In this document: one piece after another, positions 12,308-26,851 of the stretch
How positions within the stretch are numbered: position 1 is the first letter of the stretch
Layout of the letters: each line of letters begins with the position of its first letter
Assembly (NCBI GenBank): GCA_012031415.1
Contig: JAAUTN010000018.1
Location: 1 to 40,498 of the forward strand
From: Leptolyngbyaceae cyanobacterium SM1_4_3
GTDB lineage: Bacteria > Cyanobacteriota > Cyanobacteriia > Elainellales > Elainellaceae
Reading direction: 5' to 3'
DNA: 40,498 nucleotides
Program-made: the position numbers and the translations under genes
The notes under the pieces: model-generated
Database searches by the model: none
What the model saw: only the letters and a program-made list of their open reading frames with translations
What the model was told of the DNA's origin: nothing

Positions 12308-13866
12308 ATGACCCAGACCGGGACTAAACCTGTGGGCACTGAACCCGTGTTCGTGAGTCCAATGGATCACTACAATCGGGAACTCATTGCCAATCTTCAT
12401 CCCGCCGATTGGGTTAACCCTACACCTGCTCAGCGATACAATCTGGTTGTGATTGGGGCGGGCACTGCTGGATTGGTGACAGCCGCCGGAGCCGGGCTGC
12501 TGGGCGCTAAGGTCGCTCTGGTCGAAAAACATCTGATGGGCGGTGACTGCACCAATGTTGGATGTGTGCCCTCAAAAGCAATGATTCGTTCGGCACGAGT
12601 GGCAGGTGAGATTCGTCGAGCAAAGCACTACGGGATCAATGTGCCTGGTGAAGTCACAGTAGACTTCTCAACGGTGATGGAGCGCTTGCGGCGAGTCCGC
12701 ACCGAAATTAGCCCAAATGACTCTGCAACGCGATTCCAGCAAGAGTTTGGGGTAGATGTTTTTTTGGAGAAGCACGGTTTTCAGGCTCAGATACAGTCGA
12801 GGTGGCGGGGCAAACGCTGCGATTTAAGAAAGCGGCGATCGCCACTGGTTCCTCTCCTCTCCATTTGCCGATCGAAGGATTAGAAGAATCCGGATATCTC
12901 ACCAACGAAACGGTGTTTTCACTCACCGAAAAGCCCGATCGCCTTGCTGTCATTGGTGGCGGCTACATCGGCTGTGAACTCGCCCAAACCTTTCGGCGCT
13001 TAGGATCAGAGGTTGTTCTGTTTCAGCGCGGTTCCCGCCTGCTCGACCGCGAAGACCTGGATGCATCAAACCTTGTGCAGCAGGTATTTATCCAGGAGGG
13101 AATTCGTCTGGTTTTGAAGTCACAGATCAAGCGAATCGAGCAAAAAGATTCAGTCAAAGTAATTCACTATGAAGCAGACGGGCAGGAGAATGCCGTTACT
13201 GTAGATGAGATTTTGGTAGGAGCAGGCAGAAAGCCCAATATTCAGGGGTTGAATCTAGAAGCGGTAGGAGTTAAGACCGATTCTAGAAAAGGAGTGATCA
13301 TTGATGATTATCTTCAAACCAGCAATTCTAATATCTACGCAGTGGGTGATGTCTGCATGAAGTGGAAATTCACTCATGCTGCCGATGCTGCTGCCCGCAT
13401 TCTGATTCAAAATGCCTTGTTTGCTGTTGCCGGAATTGGGCGCAAAAAGCTGAGTTCACTGGTGATGCCCTGGTGTACTTACACCGATCCTGAAGTTGCT
13501 CATGTTGGACTCTATCCCCATGAAGCACAGGAACGGGGGATGGAAATTGATACTTTCTGTGTGTCGCTCAACGATGTCGATCGGGCGATCGTAGATGACG
13601 AAACGGAGGGATTCTTAAAAATTCATGTTAAGCAGGGCACCGATGAGATTGTAGGCGCAACGCTGGTCGCTCGACACGCAGGCGAAATAATTAGTCAGGT
13701 TACGCTGGCGATGACCAATGGAGTAGGGTTGGGGGCGATCGCCAACACTATTTATCCCTATCCTACCCAGGCAGAAATCCTCCGCAAAGCTGCCAGCCAA
13801 TACGGCCTCAAGCGCCTCACCACCTTCAAACCGCTAGCCTCCAAATTTTTAGCCTGGAGACGTTAA
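12308..13866 (+). CDS. FAD-dependent pyridine nucleotide-disulfide oxidoreductase (mercuric reductase-like), with one-base frameshift
   Basis: Flavoprotein of the glutathione reductase/dihydrolipoamide dehydrogenase family. The first segment has the FAD motif VIGAGTAGLVTAAGAG and the redox pair GGDCTNVGCVPSKAM. The second has ATGSSP, the NAD(P) motif VIGGGYIGCELA, NIYAVGDV and the dimerisation domain with YTDPEVAHVG and ANTIYPYPTQAEI. The two segments are in different frames. The break is at the T7 run at 12759-12765; one extra base joins them (VDVF, then GEARFSGSDTVEVAG) for 519 aa. The ATG at 12308 has AGAGGG seven bases upstream. No HMA domain and no C-terminal Cys pair are present, so true mercury reduction is unlikely. 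Substrate unknown. Confidence 0.85.
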
Positions 13867-13935: not shown

Positions 13936-14103
13936 TAACTGTACAGTTTCAGTATTTTTACGTAGGGCGGGCAAAGTAAATTGTGCCCATCAAGATGCGG
14001 TTCTTGAACAAATGGGCACGGACGATGCTCTTTACCCCTACTGTTAACACCTTATTTTAGGCTGTTAAGATATCGATGGGAACCAGCTTGGGAGGGGTTG
14101 GCA

Positions 14104-15974
14104 ATGATAGGTCAGCTACTGGGCGATCGCTACCAGATCCAGGAGTGTTTAGGCAAAAAATCGGGACGGCAAACCTTCCTGGCGTGGGATCAGCAGGCAG
14201 AACAACAGGTGGTAATCAAGCTACTCAGCTTTAACCGCGAGTTCGTTTGGGATGATCTAAAGCTGTTTGAGCGAGAAGCCGAAACCCTGCGTACTTTATC
14301 CCATCCCGCGATTCCTCATTACATCGATTTCTTTGAAGTGGAGTCTCCCCAGGTTCACCGATTTGCTTTGGTGCAGAGTTACGTCAAAGCAGATTCCCTG
14401 GCAAACCACCTGCAAGCCGGACGAACCTTTGCCGCAGCCGACCTCAAGCAACTGGCAACCTCCTTACTAGAAATCCTGGTCTATCTGCAAAGTCGTCAGC
14501 CTGCCGTTGTTCATCGTGACATTAAGCCCAGTAACGTTCTGCTCACTAATCGTTCTGGGCATCGGGCGGGAGACGTGTACCTGGTCGATTTTGGCTCAGT
14601 GCAAACCCTGGTGGCGACCGAGGGAGAAACCATTACTGTAGTGGGAACCTATGGCTACATGGCTCCTGAACAGTTTGGTGGACGCACCAGCCCGCAACAG
14701 ATCTGTATGGCTTGGGAACCACCCTAATTCATTTAGCAACGGGATGCCATCCGGCTGATATTCCCCAGCGGCGACTGAAGCTTCAGTTTGAACCCTTGAC
14801 TCAGGTAGACAGGTCTTTCAAGCAATGGCTTTCCCGTTTGGTGGAACCCGATCTAGAAGAAAGATTTGCTTCCGCAGCGGCGGCTTTAGAATCTCTCAAG
14901 TCTAACTCTCTTCCCAAAACTCTAGAATGGGCAGTGGTCAAGGCTGAGCCAGAGGCGATCGCCCAACCCTCCCACAGCCAAATCCAGCGCTCCGCCTCCG
15001 AACATCACCTCACCTTTCAGTTTCCCCCAAAAACTCAAACAGCTTCTCCTCTTCCATCCTCACGGCTCTGGAAAGTAACACCTTTGGCGCTGGTAGCAGA
15101 TTTGGTGATAATGCTCGTTAGTCCTCCGATCGCCATTTTTGCGGCTCTGCTGTGGGTCAGCAGCATTGGCATAGAGACCATCTTTCTCCGGCTGCGCCAT
15201 CGGCCTAGCAATAAACGAAGCAAGCCTCCTGCCCACCCCAACCTCTTACCCAACTTCTTGAAAGTAACCCGTCACCAGCTTATTTTGCGGCTGCATGACG
15301 GTAACTGTCGGCTACAGGAGGGCGATCGCCTCATCACTTCCCTGTCCTTACCCTTGTCCAGTATCAGAGCGCTGGAATATCGGGGCAGTCATGAACACTT
15401 CCATGCGCTGATTATTGAGGCAGATCAGCACTATGAGCTTAGGGGTGAAGGATTAGTTTCCACCAGAGAGCTAAGGTGGATCGCTGAAGAATTAAGCCAG
15501 CGGCTTAATTTACCCCTCCGCCACACTAAAGACTATTTGGTGCTGCCTCCGGCGATCGCTCAACAAGAACCAAAAACTTTGATCGACTTTCCCACCCCGA
15601 TCGCCAAACCGCCCGACACCCAGGTAATCCTGCTCAAGCGAGTCAGTTGGATTGACATCCTGATTCCAATTGATTCCAGCCAGGATGTGGAGGAGTACGA
15701 TCGCCTGCACATTGATGAACATCAAATTCGTCAATCTTTTGCCCAACAGCAAGATCCTCTTCCTGGTCTTCGCATGGCTATCAGTGCAATTGAATACTGT
15801 AGCGATCGGGATCAGGCGACCGGACTTTTGAGAATATGGGCGGGGAAGCGCAAGTATGAATTGGGTAGAGACTTGCTCTCGACTGCTGAACTAGAGTGGC
15901 TAGCTTACGAGTTGAGTGAGTGGCTGGGTTTACCCGTTTACAATACCCCAATTGCCTTATCGGTCTTGGGTTAG
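14104..15974 (+). CDS. Membrane-anchored Ser/Thr protein kinase, with one-base frameshift
   Basis: Hanks-type kinase. Residues 1-200 hold LGDRYQIQECLGKK, the catalytic loop VVHRDIKPSNVLL, the metal-binding VDFGSVQ and GTYGYMAPEQFGGRT, so it should be active. The frame then breaks near 14692-14694. Adding one G gives SPATDLYGLGTTLIHLATG, the expected kinase continuation, and a 623-aa product. After the kinase come one or two membrane segments (LALVADLVIMLVSPPIAIFAALLWV) and a C-terminal region of about 230 residues containing two similar blocks ending in RELRWIAEELSQRLNLPL and AELEWLAYELSEWLGLPV, probably a duplicated sensor or PH-like module. The ATG at 14104 is preferred because GGAGGGG lies six bases upstream. 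Its 3' end overlaps the convergent TPR gene by 18 bases. Confidence 0.87.
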
Positions 15975-17093: not shown

Positions 17094-18496
17094 ATGGCTG
17101 AATTGACGCATCGCACTGAGCAAGATTCGATGGGCAAACGGCAAATTCCATCGGAGGCTTACTACGGTATTCAAACCCTGAGAGCGACTGAGAATTTCCC
17201 CATTAGCGGGTTAAAGCCGTTGCCAACCTATATAGATGCCTGTATTTTGATCAAAAAGGCGACGGCGATCGCCAATGGTGAATTGGGCTGCATCGCTTCA
17301 GATGTCGGTCAGGCAATCGTCCGGGCTGCCGATGAAGTGTTGCAGGGCAAGCTGCGGGATCAGTTTGTGGTAGACGTTTACCAGGCAGGTGCGGGCACCT
17401 CGCATCACATGAACGTGAATGAAGTGCTGGCTAACCGCGCTCTAGAGATTTTGGGCGATGAGAAGGGGAACTACAAGCGGGTGAATCCGAATGACCATGT
17501 GAACTATGGGCAATCTACCAATGACGTGATCCCGACGGCCATTCGGATTGGCGGACTGTTGGCGCTGGAGCATTCGCTCTATCCGTCCCTGGAAAGGCGA
17601 TCGCCACTCTCAATCAAAAAGCCGATGAGTTTCACGACATCATTCGTTCAGGACGCACTCACCTGCAAGATGCTGTTCCGGTAAGATTGGGCGAAAATTT
17701 TCGCGCCTGGGGTCAAATTCTCACGGATCACCTGACGCGAATTAGACTAGCCGCAAAGGATCTAACCGTGTTAGGGCTGGGTGGCAGTGCGGCGGGGACA
17801 GGGCTGAACACGCATCCCCAATACAGACAGCGAGTTGCCCAAATTTTGTCAGAACTGCTGGGTCAACCCTTGCAGCCTGCGCCTCATCTGATGGCAGCGA
17901 TGCAGAGTATGGCTCCGTTTGTGAATGTGTCGGGTTCACTGCGTAACCTGGCGCAAGACTGCGCCAAAATTTCTCACGATCTGCGCCTGCTCGATTCTGG
18001 ACCTAAAACAGGCTTTAAGGAAATTCAACTGCCACCCGTACAGCCCGGTTCCTCGATCATGCCAGGAAAATACAATCCGGTGATGGCAGAAATGACCGCA
18101 ATGGTTTGCTTTCAGGTGATGGGCTACGATGCGGCGATCGCCCTGGCTGCCCAAGCCGGACAGTTGGAGCTAAATGTCATGATGCCGCTGATTGCCTACA
18201 ACCTGATTCACAGCGTTGAGATTTTGGGCAACACATTGGCTGCGTTAACCGAGAAGTGCATTCAGGGAATTACGGCTAAGGGCGATCGCTGTCTTGCCTA
18301 TGCTGAGGGTAGTTTGGCACTGGTGACGGCGCTCAATCCCTACATTGGCTATCTTAATGCGGCTGCGATCGCTAAAGAATCATTGGAAACAGGCAAATCT
18401 CTGCGGCAGATTGTCCTGGAACGGGGACTAATGGATGAGTCAGCCCTGGCTCAAGTGTTAGATCTGGAGAAAATGAGCCTGCCTCCCAATGTTTGA
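17094..18496 (+). CDS. aspA: Aspartate ammonia-lyase (aspartase/fumarase family), with one-base frameshift
   Basis: Interconverts L-aspartate with fumarate and ammonia. The N-terminus has the aspartase-type RQIPSEAYYGIQTLRATENF, then GAGTSHHMNVNEVLANRA and PNDHVNYGQSTNDVIPTA. The C-terminal part has the family signature GSSIMPGKYNPVMAEM with the active-site serine loop. The frame breaks at the AAA run 17593-17595; one extra A gives LEKAIATLNQKADEF then GRTHLQDAVPVRLGENFRAWG, for 467 aa, the usual length. Aspartase is favoured over fumarase by the YYGIQTLRATENF start, but the substrate was not proved. ATG at 17094, divergent from the TPR gene. Confidence 0.88.
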
Positions 18497-18522: not shown

Positions 18523-18619
18523 CGGCATTGCTTAATCCGGCTATGAAATTGAGAGGGAAGGCTCGCGGAGCGAGCCTTCCCTCTCAATTTCATAGCTAAA
18601 ATCAGCAATGCCGTTTTTT
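18523..18619 (+). terminator. Very long perfect hairpin with outer stem and T-run, likely terminator
   Basis: Arms at 18541-18565 and 18571-18595 are exact 25-base reverse complements around the loop CGGAG. Outside them, CGGCATTGC (18523-18531) pairs with GCAATGCCG (18605-18613), followed by six Ts (18614-18619). It separates the convergent aspA and histidine kinase genes. The shape suits rho-independent termination of aspA, but the perfect inner arms also look like a small mobile palindromic repeat. Confidence 0.7.
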
Positions 18620-18654: not shown

Positions 18655-19752
18655 TTACTCGTTCAAGCCATTGCTGAGCGGCAGAGTCACGGTAAACGTG
18701 GTGCCAACGTTGACCTGACTGCTGACTGCGATCGCGCCACCCGCCTGCTCTACTACCTGCTTGACAATTGCCAGCCCTAAACCTGTCCCCGGAATTTTAC
18801 CGACATTACTGGCGCGGTAGAAGGACTCAAACAGCCGAACCTGATCAGCAAGGGGAATGCCAATGCCCTCATCCTGTACTTGAACCACTACTGCCTCGGC
18901 TTGACACTGCAATCTGAGCCAAACGGTACTGCAAGGCGGTGAATATTTAATTGCGTTGGAGAGAAGATTAGTGAGAATCTGCCGCAGCACGGCTTCATTC
19001 ACATGAACGGTAAAGCATTCGTTTTCACAGTTAAACTCAATCGTGCGATCGGTGTTATTTCCAACTTTAATTTCTTCAATTAATTCGCGGCAGAAAGGTG
19101 CGATCGCCAGTGGCACACTGTTAGTAGCCAAGCCGTTTGCTTCAACTTTGCCAAACTCCAGGACATCATTCAGCAAAGCCGTCATCGAGTTAACCGCTGC
19201 TTGAATTCGCTGAAAAAAATCGGCGCGTCGTTCGGATGGCAGGTCGGGCTGCTCTAGCAGACGAGCAAACCCAGCAATAACATTGAGCGGATTGCGAAAT
19301 TCGTGGGAAACCATTGAGACGAAATGTGATTTGAGTTGCTTGAGTTCGCGCTCTTGTTCTAGTGCAGCCTGAAGCTGAAGGGAAAGTCGGCGCGATCGCA
19401 GCAGCATTTCTACCCGCGCTCGTAACTCTAACTTCTCGATTGGTTTGCCAATCAGCTCATCGACGGTTTGCCAGAGGTGACGCGTCAACAGTTTGACATC
19501 AGCCTGGAGAGTAATCAGCAAGACGGGCAAAAACACAGGCTGTTCAGCGTGTTTTCTGGCCTGTACCCACTCCCACAAATGATGCAGGGCTGCGCCATCA
19601 AGCACGCACAGGTCAAACGATTCGTTTAGCAGCGGCAGAGCTTTGCCCGCCTGCACCACAGATTCTCCGACCACGACTTCGTAATATCGCCCCAACCAGT
19701 CTGCTAGCAGGCGGCGATTTTCCGTTTGCTCCACAAAAATCAAAATTCGCAT
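18655..19752 (-). CDS. Receiver-histidine kinase sensor (REC-HisKA-HATPase)
   Basis: 365 aa, no membrane segment. Residues 1-120 form a response-regulator receiver with the candidate phospho-acceptor D52 (DLCVLDG) and the conserved lysine K103 (IGKPI). A short helix (QLQAALEQERELKQLKSHF) leads to the H-box with H150 (VSHEFRNPLN), then the ATPase domain with NLLSNAIKYSP, DEGIGIP and GTGLGLAIVKQ. The ATG at 19752 has GGGGGAG about six bases upstream and follows the KaiC-like stop codon by one base, so the two are surely co-translated. A longer frame from 19821 would overlap the upstream gene. The output is unknown; the receiver could be controlled by another kinase. Confidence 0.9.
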   Translation of the reverse strand: MRILIFVEQTENRRLLADWLGRYYEVVVGESVVQAGKALPLLNESFDLCVLDGAALHHLWEWVQARKHAEQPVFLPVLLITLQADVKLLTRHLWQTVDELIGKPIEKLELRARVEMLLRSRRLSLQLQAALEQERELKQLKSHFVSMVSHEFRNPLNVIAGFARLLEQPDLPSERRADFFQRIQAAVNSMTALLNDVLEFGKVEANGLATNSVPLAIAPFCRELIEEIKVGNNTDRTIEFNCENECFTVHVNEAVLRQILTNLLSNAIKYSPPCSTVWLRLQCQAEAVVVQVQDEGIGIPLADQVRLFESFYRASNVGKIPGTGLGLAIVKQVVEQAGGAIAVSSQVNVGTTFTVTLPLSNGLNE

Positions 19753-19753
19753 C

Positions 19754-21193
19754 CTACTCCCCCTCTGGCCATTCGGGGATACCCGTGAGAATGCCTCGAA
19801 GCTGGCTGAGCGGATTGCCAACCTTTACTCCATAGCGGCTGATTTGAAATTCGCGCAGGGTTTTCTCAAAATCGGTCATCCGCTTTTTGAGGACACCGAT
19901 GACGCGCCGCAGTTCGCCCCGCAGTTCTAGATAGCGCAGAAAAATAATCGTGTCGGCTAGATAGCTGATGCCAATTTCGGTGGCGCGAAATTCGCCCATA
20001 ATCGTTTCAAGCTCGTTGATCAGCAGCACTGCCACCCCCATGTTTTGCAGATACTTACAGAGGGCATGGAGGTGAGGTGTGAGGTCTTCTCCCCGCACTG
20101 AGAGCCGATAGCCAGAGATACTGTCGATCATTACAATTCGCGCCTGCTGTTGCTCAACCTCTTGCCGTACCAAATTAGCAAATTCATCTGGGGTGTAGTG
20201 GAGCGGCTCGATTTGCACGATCGCCAGCGTGCCGCGCTCCTGCATGGCGTGGACTGGAATGTTAATGCCTTCGGCGCGATGCATCAATGTTTCCTTGGCT
20301 TCCTCAAAGGTGTAAATCACCGATCGCTCACCCCGTCCGGCTGCCTCTTTCATAAACTGAAGTCCCAGGGTGCTTTTCCCTACACCGCTTGGACCGCTGA
20401 CAATCGTAATCGTGCTGCGCTCGATGCCGCCGTGCAGCAGTTCGTCAATTTCTGGAATTCCAGAGGAGATAGATTCTGTGGTGAAAGCTCGTTCAAAAGT
20501 TTCTGGCAGCAAGCGCGGAAAAAGCTGGATGCCGCTGTTGGTGAGGCGCAGGCTATGGTAGCCATCTCGAAAGCCACTGCCTCGAAACTTGGAGACTCTA
20601 AGGGTGCGATCGCCCTCATTGAAATTCAAATTCAGCACCCCATCGCTCATGAACTGCAAATCATCGTCAGGAGCTTCGAGGCTATGTTCTGAAGTGAACA
20701 AAACCGTGATGTCTTGCTCGACTAGAAACCGTAGAAACGACAGCACCTGCTTGCGAAACTGGAAAGGATCGGTGGCAAGATAGCGAAACTGTGTCATTGA
20801 ATCAATAAAAATTCGCTGTGGCTTTAGGGTTTCGACCTGCTCCACAATTCGCTGAGTCGTCGGTTCGCGCTCGACTTCAGCGGGTGAGAAAATATCGTAG
20901 GTCTGTACCTGAGCAAAAAATTCAGAGGTAGGGCTAAGGTCAAGAAAAGTAACGCCCTGCGCGTCAAATCCTAGCCCTTCAGCCGTTCTTCGCAGTTGGG
21001 CAACCGTTTCTGCCAGCGTAATAAATAGAACGGGTTCACTGTTTGCGGCTCCCGTCGTTAAAAAATGCATCCCCAGGGTGGTTTTGCCTGTTCCTGGCCC
21101 CCCTCGAACTAGATAAGCCCGACCAGGAACGTAGCCGCCATAAAGAACTTCGTTGAGACCCGAAATTCCCGTCGATAACCGATCTCTAGACAT
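19754..21193 (-). CDS. KaiC-like double RecA ATPase
   Basis: 479 aa with two KaiC domains: Walker A GGPGTGKT at 31-38 and GPSGVGKS at 267-274, and Walker B-type segments RIFIDSM and RIVMIDSISG. In the second domain the catalytic glutamate pair is kept (TFEEAKETL, E297-E298). In the first it reads LAET, so one glutamate is lost. At the KaiC autophosphorylation site the sequence is ATEIGISYLADTII: S431 of KaiC corresponds to S410 here, T426 to T405, but T432 is replaced by Y411. It is therefore a KaiC homologue rather than the clock KaiC, and no kaiA or kaiB is nearby. Its partner is the adjacent histidine kinase. Confidence 0.9.
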   Translation of the reverse strand: MSRDRLSTGISGLNEVLYGGYVPGRAYLVRGGPGTGKTTLGMHFLTTGAANSEPVLFITLAETVAQLRRTAEGLGFDAQGVTFLDLSPTSEFFAQVQTYDIFSPAEVEREPTTQRIVEQVETLKPQRIFIDSMTQFRYLATDPFQFRKQVLSFLRFLVEQDITVLFTSEHSLEAPDDDLQFMSDGVLNLNFNEGDRTLRVSKFRGSGFRDGYHSLRLTNSGIQLFPRLLPETFERAFTTESISSGIPEIDELLHGGIERSTITIVSGPSGVGKSTLGLQFMKEAAGRGERSVIYTFEEAKETLMHRAEGINIPVHAMQERGTLAIVQIEPLHYTPDEFANLVRQEVEQQQARIVMIDSISGYRLSVRGEDLTPHLHALCKYLQNMGVAVLLINELETIMGEFRATEIGISYLADTIIFLRYLELRGELRRVIGVLKKRMTDFEKTLREFQISRYGVKVGNPLSQLRGILTGIPEWPEGE

Positions 21194-25861: not shown

Positions 25862-26851
25862 GTGGTGACTTCACAACCCGTTCCCCATCTGATACTTCGT
25901 AACGAGTCAGGCAATCGTTATCTCTCTTTGGCAGGCAGCAACTGCTGGACTGTTGGAAGAGGCGACGACAACAACTTTGTCTTGCCTGACCGCTGGATTT
26001 CTCGTAACCATGCCATGCTTCAACGGATGGAGACGGGAGAGTTTTACCTGATTGATTTAGGCAGCCGTAACGGTTCGTTTGTCAACGGACGGCGAGTGAG
26101 TGTGCCCGTGACGCTACAGAATGGCGATCGCCTTACCTTTGGTCAAACCGAACTGGAATTCTACTGCCCACCCATTGAACACATGGCCGACTCTTCGGTG
26201 GGCATTGATTCCCAAGAATTCACGGCGACAGCAACGCTGCACGTGCGGCGGCTGATTTCGGTATTGGTGGTTGACATCCGAGACTTTACGGTGATGACCC
26301 GCCAGATTGACGAAAAGGTGCTATCTGAGGTGATCGGCACCTGGTTTCGTTGTGCTGGAGACATCATCCGCGAATATGGAAGTTGGGTTGATAAGTACAT
26401 CGGCGACGCTATTATGGCGGTTTGGATTCATGGCGCTCAAGGTGTGAGCCATGACGAGATGGTCCGAATTGCCCACGCGCTCAGTGCTTTGCACAAAATG
26501 ACCAGTCAGCTACACGAGCGCTATCCCTTGCCATTCCCACTGCGGGTTGGGGCAGGGCTGAATACGGGCTACGCGATGGTTGGAAATACGGGAACGGGCG
26601 ATCGCCCCGACTACACCGCTCTGGGAGATACGGTTAACGCTGCCTTTCGCTTGGAGTCTTCAACGAAGCAAATTGGCATGGATGTTGCCTTAGGCGAAAC
26701 CACCTACAAATATTTAGAAGCCTCTGGCGCAAAACCGAAGCTGTTTCGTCAATACACAGTTAGCATGAAGGGCTACGACTCGCCAACACTGACCTACGCT
26801 GGCTCTTTTGCCGACTTGAATACTTTTTTGCAGACAGCAGGGAAGGTTTAG
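25862..26851 (+). CDS. FHA domain-class III adenylate cyclase
   Basis: Makes cAMP from ATP. Residues 28-100 form an FHA phosphothreonine-binding domain (TVGRGDDNNFVLPDRWISRNH, with GSRNGSFVNGRRV). Residues 130-300 form the cyclase: metal aspartates D138 (VVDIRDFT) and D182 (KYIGDAIMAVW), purine-specifying K178 and T252, and transition-state N259 and R263 (DTVNAAFRLES). The Lys/Thr pair matches CyaB1-type cyanobacterial adenylate cyclases and argues for ATP over GTP. No membrane segment. The start is GTG at 25862 or the next GTG at 25865. The FHA domain implies control by Ser/Thr kinases, two of which are in this window. 329 aa. Confidence 0.92.
   Translation: MVTSQPVPHLILRNESGNRYLSLAGSNCWTVGRGDDNNFVLPDRWISRNHAMLQRMETGEFYLIDLGSRNGSFVNGRRVSVPVTLQNGDRLTFGQTELEFYCPPIEHMADSSVGIDSQEFTATATLHVRRLISVLVVDIRDFTVMTRQIDEKVLSEVIGTWFRCAGDIIREYGSWVDKYIGDAIMAVWIHGAQGVSHDEMVRIAHALSALHKMTSQLHERYPLPFPLRVGAGLNTGYAMVGNTGTGDRPDYTALGDTVNAAFRLESSTKQIGMDVALGETTYKYLEASGAKPKLFRQYTVSMKGYDSPTLTYAGSFADLNTFLQTAGKV

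Follow-up and report, generated by a model that had tools for sequence, protein, structure and literature searches.

The stretch of DNA analysed here (the window) comprises 40,498 nucleotides and is contig C164 of the draft genome (7.79 Mb, 700 contigs) of Leptolyngbyaceae cyanobacterium SM1_4_3. On its minus strand, a gene encoding a KaiC-like double-domain ATPase (479 amino acids, 19754..21193, ATG start, stop codon TAG at 19754-19756) is followed by a gene encoding a pseudo-receiver histidine kinase (365 amino acids, 18655..19752, ATG at 19752). A single base separates the TAG from this ATG, and the coordinates of the open reading frames (ORFs) thereby confirm the one-base gap reported in the first-pass annotation. 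The pairing of this ATPase with the N-terminal domain of the kinase is found far beyond chance expectation in several bacterial phyla and in haloarchaea, and the constant partner is this domain, a pseudo-receiver termed the adapter in the following, and not the kinase. With a probability of roughly 55%, both genes encode one signalling module, in which the ATPase ring, via its B-loop and the adapter, would switch the kinase without KaiB.

Conservation of the pairing

Orthologues of the KaiC-like protein were identified in 9 out of 36 genomes of the order (63-97% identity, window included). In all nine cases the downstream protein shares the N-terminal domain of the kinase; one of the orthologues, that of G019, is interrupted at a contig edge. 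In 12 of 386 phylum genomes, a family member was detected with 688-944 bits by a profile built from eight orthologues. The next matches are a partial second copy in G047 (318 bits) and proteins with at most 248 bits, which, except for G036, are presumed to represent clock KaiC and more remote relatives. G036 contains a distant member, a KaiC-like gene with a weak, frame-broken adapter match just behind it. An adapter protein was observed downstream in 12 of 12 loci of the 11 phylum genomes other than that of the window, and the two whole-genome searches combined gave a nearby adapter-domain protein at all 21 orthologous loci. Adapter matches above 100 bits, with 11 candidates scored per genome in the search of the 386 genomes, are confined to the ATPase-bearing genomes, 12 of 386 and 9 of 36. 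The adapters of the window and of L102 were missed by the neighbour scan, in which ORF overlap was limited to 60 bases, and were later found by the adapter profile; in case of the window, the ORF extended upstream to a TTG start overlaps the KaiC-like gene.

A second set, the named loci, consists of the best 80 of 97 relatives, picked by two peptide motifs, one of them in the B-loop, so that conservation at these motifs is inflated. Since several of these loci belong to the same genomes as loci of the other sets, the sets are not additive. Within 2.5 kb downstream of the KaiC-like gene, an adapter protein is encoded in 79 of the 80 named loci (58-97% identity), which belong to Cyanobacteria, Chloroflexota, Nitrospirota, and Myxococcota and to records labelled Pseudomonadota, Verrucomicrobia, Sumerlaeota, and Desulfonauticus; many are metagenome bins, and the organism names may be wrong. 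The closest named relative of the KaiC-like protein is encoded by a Leptolyngbyaceae metagenome bin (97% identity). The first-pass annotation had proposed to collect the neighbours of close homologues and had regarded homologues without a linked kinase as evidence against the pair. The collected neighbours establish the pairing as conserved, and 70 of the 80 adapter proteins are kinases. It is a genuine and widely distributed pair that is not peculiar to this genome.

Other neighbours are far less constant. Among the 14 largest neighbour families examined, the most widespread occurs in 20 of 81 loci (an example looks like a signalling protein) and the next in 13 of 81 (a Microcoleus-type clade and L121). 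The distances between KaiC-like proteins correlate with those between adapters (r = 0.79 for 79 pairs, 0.59 for 32 thinned pairs) and with those between the stand-alone receivers described below (r = 0.67, 44 pairs); in each case, none of 2000 permutations reached a correlation as high.

The plasmid collection contains 245 records that match the window's KaiC-like protein, and 23 of 25 among the matches listed are haloarchaeal (41-56% identity). In six of the eight haloarchaeal loci opened (44-56% identity), an adapter kinase is located directly downstream, in four of the six even two such kinases, and the remaining two loci have an adjacent stand-alone receiver only. In Acaryochloris (58% identity) the adapter kinase is situated upstream in divergent orientation. 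Three proteobacterial records show a downstream kinase that lacks the adapter.

An exclusive occurrence of the adapter in the ATPase neighbourhood was rejected because of unlinked copies in G047 and in other genomes; those of G047 are located on contigs C74 and C38 (L227 and L228), and adapter-type domains whose surroundings, as far as read, lack a KaiC-like gene were also seen at L224, L225, L226, L229, and L230. A search of 292 phylum genomes for ATPases of a sister type (L054) at E 1e-80 returned four genomes, all of which already carry the present family. At L169 (1750-3752), genes for a protein of 102 amino acids and for a receiver-Ser/Thr kinase fusion come behind the KaiC-like gene.

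The adapter domain and its outputs

The adapter (19354..19752, minus strand) was delimited by profiles and by an AlphaFold model of the kinase (mean predicted local distance difference test score, pLDDT, of 89.5). It is predicted to adopt a five-stranded receiver fold, with the last helix running into the helix of the kinase (residues 107-165). Behind it follow the HisKA dimerisation and phosphoacceptor domain (19138..19332, motif SHEFRNPLN, His150) and the HATPase_c catalytic domain (18673..18996), both on the minus strand and identified by Pfam. The H, N, G1, F, and G2 boxes were judged intact when the sequence was read by eye.

No Pfam receiver match was obtained for the N-terminus of the window kinase at E 0.01. 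Among solved structures, the second receiver of PleD is nearest to the adapter profile (E 2.9e-13), and hhalign relates the profile to stand-alone receivers encoded in the same operons with 95.6 percent. The positions of the phosphorylation pocket (acidic pair, phospho-Asp, Lys) are named after those of CheY. None of 80 members retains the first acidic residue, 66 retain the Asp, and 24 the Lys; as pocket residues are lost in most members, the adapter is regarded as a pseudo-receiver family. In case of the haloarchaeal and Acaryochloris adapters, the Asp is kept in 11 of 11 and the Lys lost in 11 of 11. The N-terminal receiver described in the first-pass annotation is thus supported with respect to its predicted fold and its profile relatives, but it is a degenerate domain without a Pfam match and not an ordinary receiver. 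Likewise, the view that a receiver takes the place of the KaiB-like domain of SasA holds for the position of the domain, with the amendment that the conserved partner is the adapter and not the kinase.

While the adapter is constant, the outputs are interchangeable. For the window and 79 named loci (L169, without an adapter, was left out), 70 of 80 adapter proteins are kinases, 69 with HisKA and 69 with HATPase_c; HisKA_3 occurs in L125, and L153 is cut by a contig end. Non-kinase outputs are GGDEF (three; L181, L182, L185), HD (two; L139, L172), and SpoIIE (one; L176). The four remaining proteins lack a catalytic domain in the frame read, namely L145, in which the frame is broken, L174 and L175, which show just PAS and GAF domains, and L177, which is cut by a contig end. 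The complete kinases vary between 346 and 963 amino acids, many of them with additional PAS, GAF, or receiver domains. Even among the nine orthologues of the order, the first 130 residues are recognisable and the remainder is rebuilt.

The stand-alone receiver

A receiver gene, usually of about 120 codons, is located between the ATPase and adapter genes in 45 of the 80 named loci. Of these proteins, 45 of 45 retain the Asp and 44 of 45 the Lys, and all 24 of the 45 that were given to Pfam match Response_reg. The clade of the window (24 rows, cyanobacterial) lacks this gene throughout. As the tree needs 12 changes to account for its distribution, repeated loss or gain has to be assumed. We think that the tight two-gene form of the window is a reduced three-gene operon, for which the tree is no proof. 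An association between loss of the receiver and the retained adapter Lys (22 of 35 versus 2 of 45, Fisher p 9e-9) was discarded as evidence, since one clade holds 22 of the 24 rows with the Lys and independent pairs in the tree are unsupportive.

The position of this receiver also fits a signal of opposite direction, with kinase and receiver sensing the state of the cell and the KaiC-like ATPase as the effector. Such an order of events would explain why a receiver with kept Asp and Lys lies beside the ATPase in more than half of the named loci and why two of the eight haloarchaeal loci opened combine an ATPase and a receiver with no adjacent kinase. However, the window clade does without this receiver, the enzymes joined to the adapter as outputs (kinase, GGDEF, HD, SpoIIE) do not require a downstream ATPase, and Pfam found no output domain in the window ATPase besides its two KaiC domains. 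The reversed direction is the strongest of the alternatives and is considered rather improbable.

The ATPase and its B-loop insertion

The KaiC-like protein contains two PF06745 domains. Its CI-type RecA/KaiC domain (20516..21175, minus strand; Pfam and alignment) carries the Walker A motif GGPGTGKT and Ala61 in place of the first catalytic Glu, with Glu62 kept, and in the CII-type domain (19811..20467, minus strand; alignment) the pair E297/E298 is intact. The motif TEIGISY (19961..19981, minus strand) provides the phosphosite equivalents T405, S410, and Y411, which align with T426, S431, and T432 of KaiC. The residues had been read correctly in the first-pass annotation: alignment to KaiC shows that the equivalents of T426 and S431 are kept with a Tyr for T432, that one CI catalytic Glu is lost, and that the CII pair is complete. 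Over the family (the window and 79 loci; L185 with its broken frame was left out here as well as from trees and distance tests, and X letters were removed from rows before tree building), Ser410 and Tyr411 are each present in 78 of 80 proteins, and Thr405 is present in 71. The first CI Glu is missing from 73 of them, and the two residues of the CII pair are retained by 76 and 80, respectively. Among nine haloarchaeal proteins, six possess both CI Glu residues.

The stretch equivalent to the KaiC B-loop (residues 93-109; 20867..20917, minus strand; alignment and AlphaFold) includes a family-specific insertion of eight residues, FSPAEVER (residues 102-109), which is absent from 16 of 16 clock KaiC proteins. 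The latter are the usable proteins from 19 loci (L027-L045), filtered by the motif [DE]SHIST, so that the phosphosite column of the clock set is determined by selection, which does not apply to the absence of the insertion. In the alignment the insertion adjoins the residues matching the B-loop. According to the literature, the B-loop of KaiC comprises residues 116-123 (PMC12084410), and KaiB and SasA compete for one surface of CI, with KaiB contacting the B-loop (PMC6769508, PMC12084410). The AlphaFold model of the ATPase (mean pLDDT 85.1) is similar to KaiC chains with template modelling (TM) scores of 0.76-0.82 among the 50 listed, and residues 93-109 are its only stretch of at least three residues with a pLDDT below 50. 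Because the insertion of the family lies in this low-confidence stretch and KaiB and SasA share the CI surface, we propose the B-loop as the candidate docking site of the adapter.

The C-terminal tail of KaiC has a role in KaiA binding. Beyond P473, the tail comprises 4-14 residues in 80 of 81 rows, compared to 26-50 in the 16 clock proteins. Such a short tail beyond the A-loop bears on another alternative, a timing device without KaiB, in which a slow ATPase or phosphorylation cycle would time the output of the kinase like an hourglass. The retention of the phosphosite equivalents in most members is in agreement with this idea. By analogy, so are the argument of De Luca et al. 2011 for related pairs (PMC3164672) and the light-dark expression changes of the cir genes of Haloferax volcanii, including the double-domain cirC beside fixL (PMC3941300, where knockouts of cir genes other than cirA are also reported). 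Apart from the tail, the loss of the first CI catalytic Glu in nearly all members, a locus without KaiB, and a genome that already contains kaiABC speak against an hourglass, which we consider unlikely.

Clock genes elsewhere in the genome

Throughout the genome, KaiB matches were obtained on three contigs (C299, C668, and C500), KaiA was matched once, on C299, and neither was matched on C164, in agreement with the earlier statement that no kaiA or kaiB is near the pair. On C299, kaiA and kaiB lie beside a clock kaiC that is broken into two overlapping frames (L059, 7475-9054), which may be an assembly error. A KaiB-domain histidine kinase of the SasA type is encoded on C668 by a gene distinct from the window kinase. 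Due to the presence of kaiA, kaiB, and kaiC elsewhere in the genome, the window's KaiC-like protein is a paralogue, a second protein of the KaiC type.

The paralogue has the double RecA-fold architecture of clock KaiC but lacks the clock-type Ser-Thr phosphosite pair (S431/T432), as S410 is kept and Y411 replaces the Thr. Its identity to the clock KaiC proteins found in the order is 27-30%, and the curated clock KaiC models stay below their cut-offs (TIGR02655, 186 bits versus 546; PRK09302, 277 versus 408). No NCBIfam family exceeded its cut-off for either protein of the pair among the matches listed. In the tree, the family of the window stands apart from clock KaiC and from two KaiC2-like rows, with no certain KaiC3 included.

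A clock paralogue of the KaiC2 or KaiC3 type could use KaiB or SasA encoded elsewhere, and the required KaiB, SasA-type, and KaiA genes are indeed present in the genome; moreover, a Tyr at the second site is found in some KaiC3 (PMC5520375). The low identity to clock KaiC and the separate position in a tree of this composition, the eight additional residues in the loop on which KaiB docks, and the receiver-type adapter as linked partner at nearly every named locus make this highly unlikely.

Proposed mechanism

The reading of both genes as one signalling module is based on the one-base spacing, the conserved linkage, outputs that vary while the adapter stays, the correlated distances, the predicted adapter fold with its continuous helix, and the B-loop insertion. 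The KaiC-like ATPase, a hexamer by homology, would be the state-bearing sensor. Its partner would be the receiver-derived adapter, with part of the phosphorylation pocket lost in most members and the output enzyme fused behind it. We infer that the ring would bind the adapter through the enlarged, flexible B-loop of its first domain, and that the nucleotide state of the ATPase or the phosphorylation state of S410/Y411 would set the switching of the kinase, which the switch may reach through the helix joining it to the adapter. KaiB would be dispensable. In other members, the stand-alone receiver, which is probably phosphorylatable, could add feedback or input, and the lineage of the window would do without it.

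A number of observations weigh against this reading. L169 is the sole named locus without an adapter. G047 harbours two adapters (143 and 118 bits after re-scoring) whose surroundings, as far as read, lack a KaiC-like gene, weaker adapters (59-85 bits) are unlinked in five further genomes opened, and five more genomes show adapter matches of 50-55 bits, by score alone. The correlated distances reflect common inheritance and are not a proof of interaction, and low confidence for a loop of the modelled monomer would suit a binding loop without proving one. In members from the whole-genome search, the B-loop is more variable, as seen in G047 (ESYEIFAPSEVERGP) and L098 (QSYDILSPADVEREP). Furthermore, the adapter of the window retains Glu8, Asp52, Thr81, and Lys103 and may therefore still be phosphorylatable.

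A mere co-travelling of the two genes with no direct interaction would fit the patchy spread across phyla, as expected for the transfer of gene pairs, but is hardly credible, since the adapter persists through swaps of the output, the changed gene order in Acaryochloris, and changed flanking genes.

The KaiB-independent switch suggested in the first-pass annotation is plausible, and the idea has partly been published before. The pair is conserved with no kaiB at the locus. It is tempting to speculate beyond this family that KaiC-like ATPases have an output system of their own that is independent of KaiB, with receiver-derived adapters that bind to an enlarged B-loop of CI and bear interchangeable effectors (kinase, GGDEF, HD, SpoIIE), and with the thioredoxin-fold proteins KaiB and SasA of the circadian clock using this slot later or independently; this generalisation is tentative and rather improbable. 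Should the adapter indeed bind at the B-loop, partner, site, and readout of signalling without KaiB would be named for a family that extends across several bacterial phyla and haloarchaea, and a two-protein system would be available for the study of KaiC output without KaiA and KaiB.

Other features of the window

Between the stop codon of the kinase gene and a convergent lyase gene, a hairpin with 44-nt arms of 89 percent complementarity is located at 18523-18613. Its core occurs at three sites in the genome and is missing from the corresponding position of the near relative L046, at which the alignment has a gap of about 120 bases. The hairpin resembles a small mobile palindromic element. 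In a scan for promoters and terminators, matches were no more common than in shuffled sequence.

Three broken genes are found near the pair. The lyase of the aspartase/fumarase family (17094-18496) is read in two frames, with about 32 Pfam profile positions missing between the pieces, and is likewise in two pieces in L046. An N-terminal protein kinase (14098-14727, Pfam) ends inside the kinase domain, and the overlapping ORF at 14712-15974, which has no Pfam match, reads like the remainder of the kinase, possibly due to a frameshift. A pyridine nucleotide-disulphide oxidoreductase extends across two overlapping ORFs (12308-13866). The protein encoded at 25862-26851 combines an FHA domain with a class III nucleotide cyclase domain (Pfam).

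Comparison with known systems

The idea of a KaiB-independent pair of KaiC and kinase has partly been published by De Luca et al. 2011 (PMC3164672). In this paper, kaiC is followed by a specific kinase without kaiB, cotranscription is reported for Ramlibacter tataouinensis, the kinase has a receiver-like N-terminal domain, and an hourglass is proposed. The KaiC-Nt_HK operon described there for Ramlibacter and its relatives shares with the present pair a double-domain KaiC, with SY, TY, or SF phosphosites, followed by a kinase. It differs in that, according to the same paper, this group has no kaiB in the genome, whereas the genome of the window has kaiB on C299 and KaiB-type matches on C668 and C500. 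Loci resembling this group are L054 and L055 (34%) and L250 (41% identity to the window's KaiC-like protein), and L054, L055, and L250-L252 presumably belong to it. No match to the adapter profile at E 1 was obtained for the kinases of L250-L252. The N-terminal domains of five kinases resembling those of De Luca et al., which we infer to be of the RtaNt type, gave 0.1 percent in hhalign against the adapter and 82 percent against the profile of stand-alone receivers; a direct homology between the adapter and the N-terminal domain of the proteobacterial pairs thus found no support in hhalign. In the third group of De Luca et al., kaiC is often followed by a receiver, and Caur_0239 and rrnAC0131 have SY sites (PMC3164672); this group may include members of the present family.

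In the KaiC-SasA system of Synechococcus, as in the proposed module, CI of KaiC signals to the N-terminal domain of a histidine kinase, but the N-terminus of SasA is a thioredoxin-fold domain of the KaiB type, as opposed to a receiver-fold adapter and a larger B-loop in the window pair (PMC6769508). The core of HisKA and HATPase_c is common to the window kinase and SasA-type kinases. In the KaiA3-KaiB3-KaiC3 system of Synechocystis a receiver-type domain works with KaiC as well, but unlike in the window pair the C-terminus of KaiA3 resembles KaiA, and KaiB3 belongs to the system (PMC11372060).

The family also resembles known receiver proteins and archaeal systems. PleD is a receiver-adapter receiver-GGDEF protein, in which the second receiver has the role of an adapter. 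In L181, L182, and L185, an adapter-GGDEF protein is encoded next to a receiver gene of its own, as if PleD had been divided in two; the family of the window differs from PleD by its KaiC-like partner and by outputs that are mostly kinases. For archaea, Makarova et al. 2017 reportedly described KaiC-like signalling hubs. The haloarchaeal loci with adjacent adapter kinases or receivers are similar to such hubs and to cirC beside fixL in Haloferax, for which an adapter domain and its link to the B-loop are not described in the accessible sections of the literature (PMC5847659, PMC3941300). Among the open-licence papers listed in literature searches, none dealt in its title or displayed abstract with the adapter, the interchangeable outputs, or the B-loop insertion. 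As far as seen, the constant adapter with its swapped outputs, the three-gene form, the tandem adapters of archaea, and the insertion in the B-loop are new with respect to these systems.

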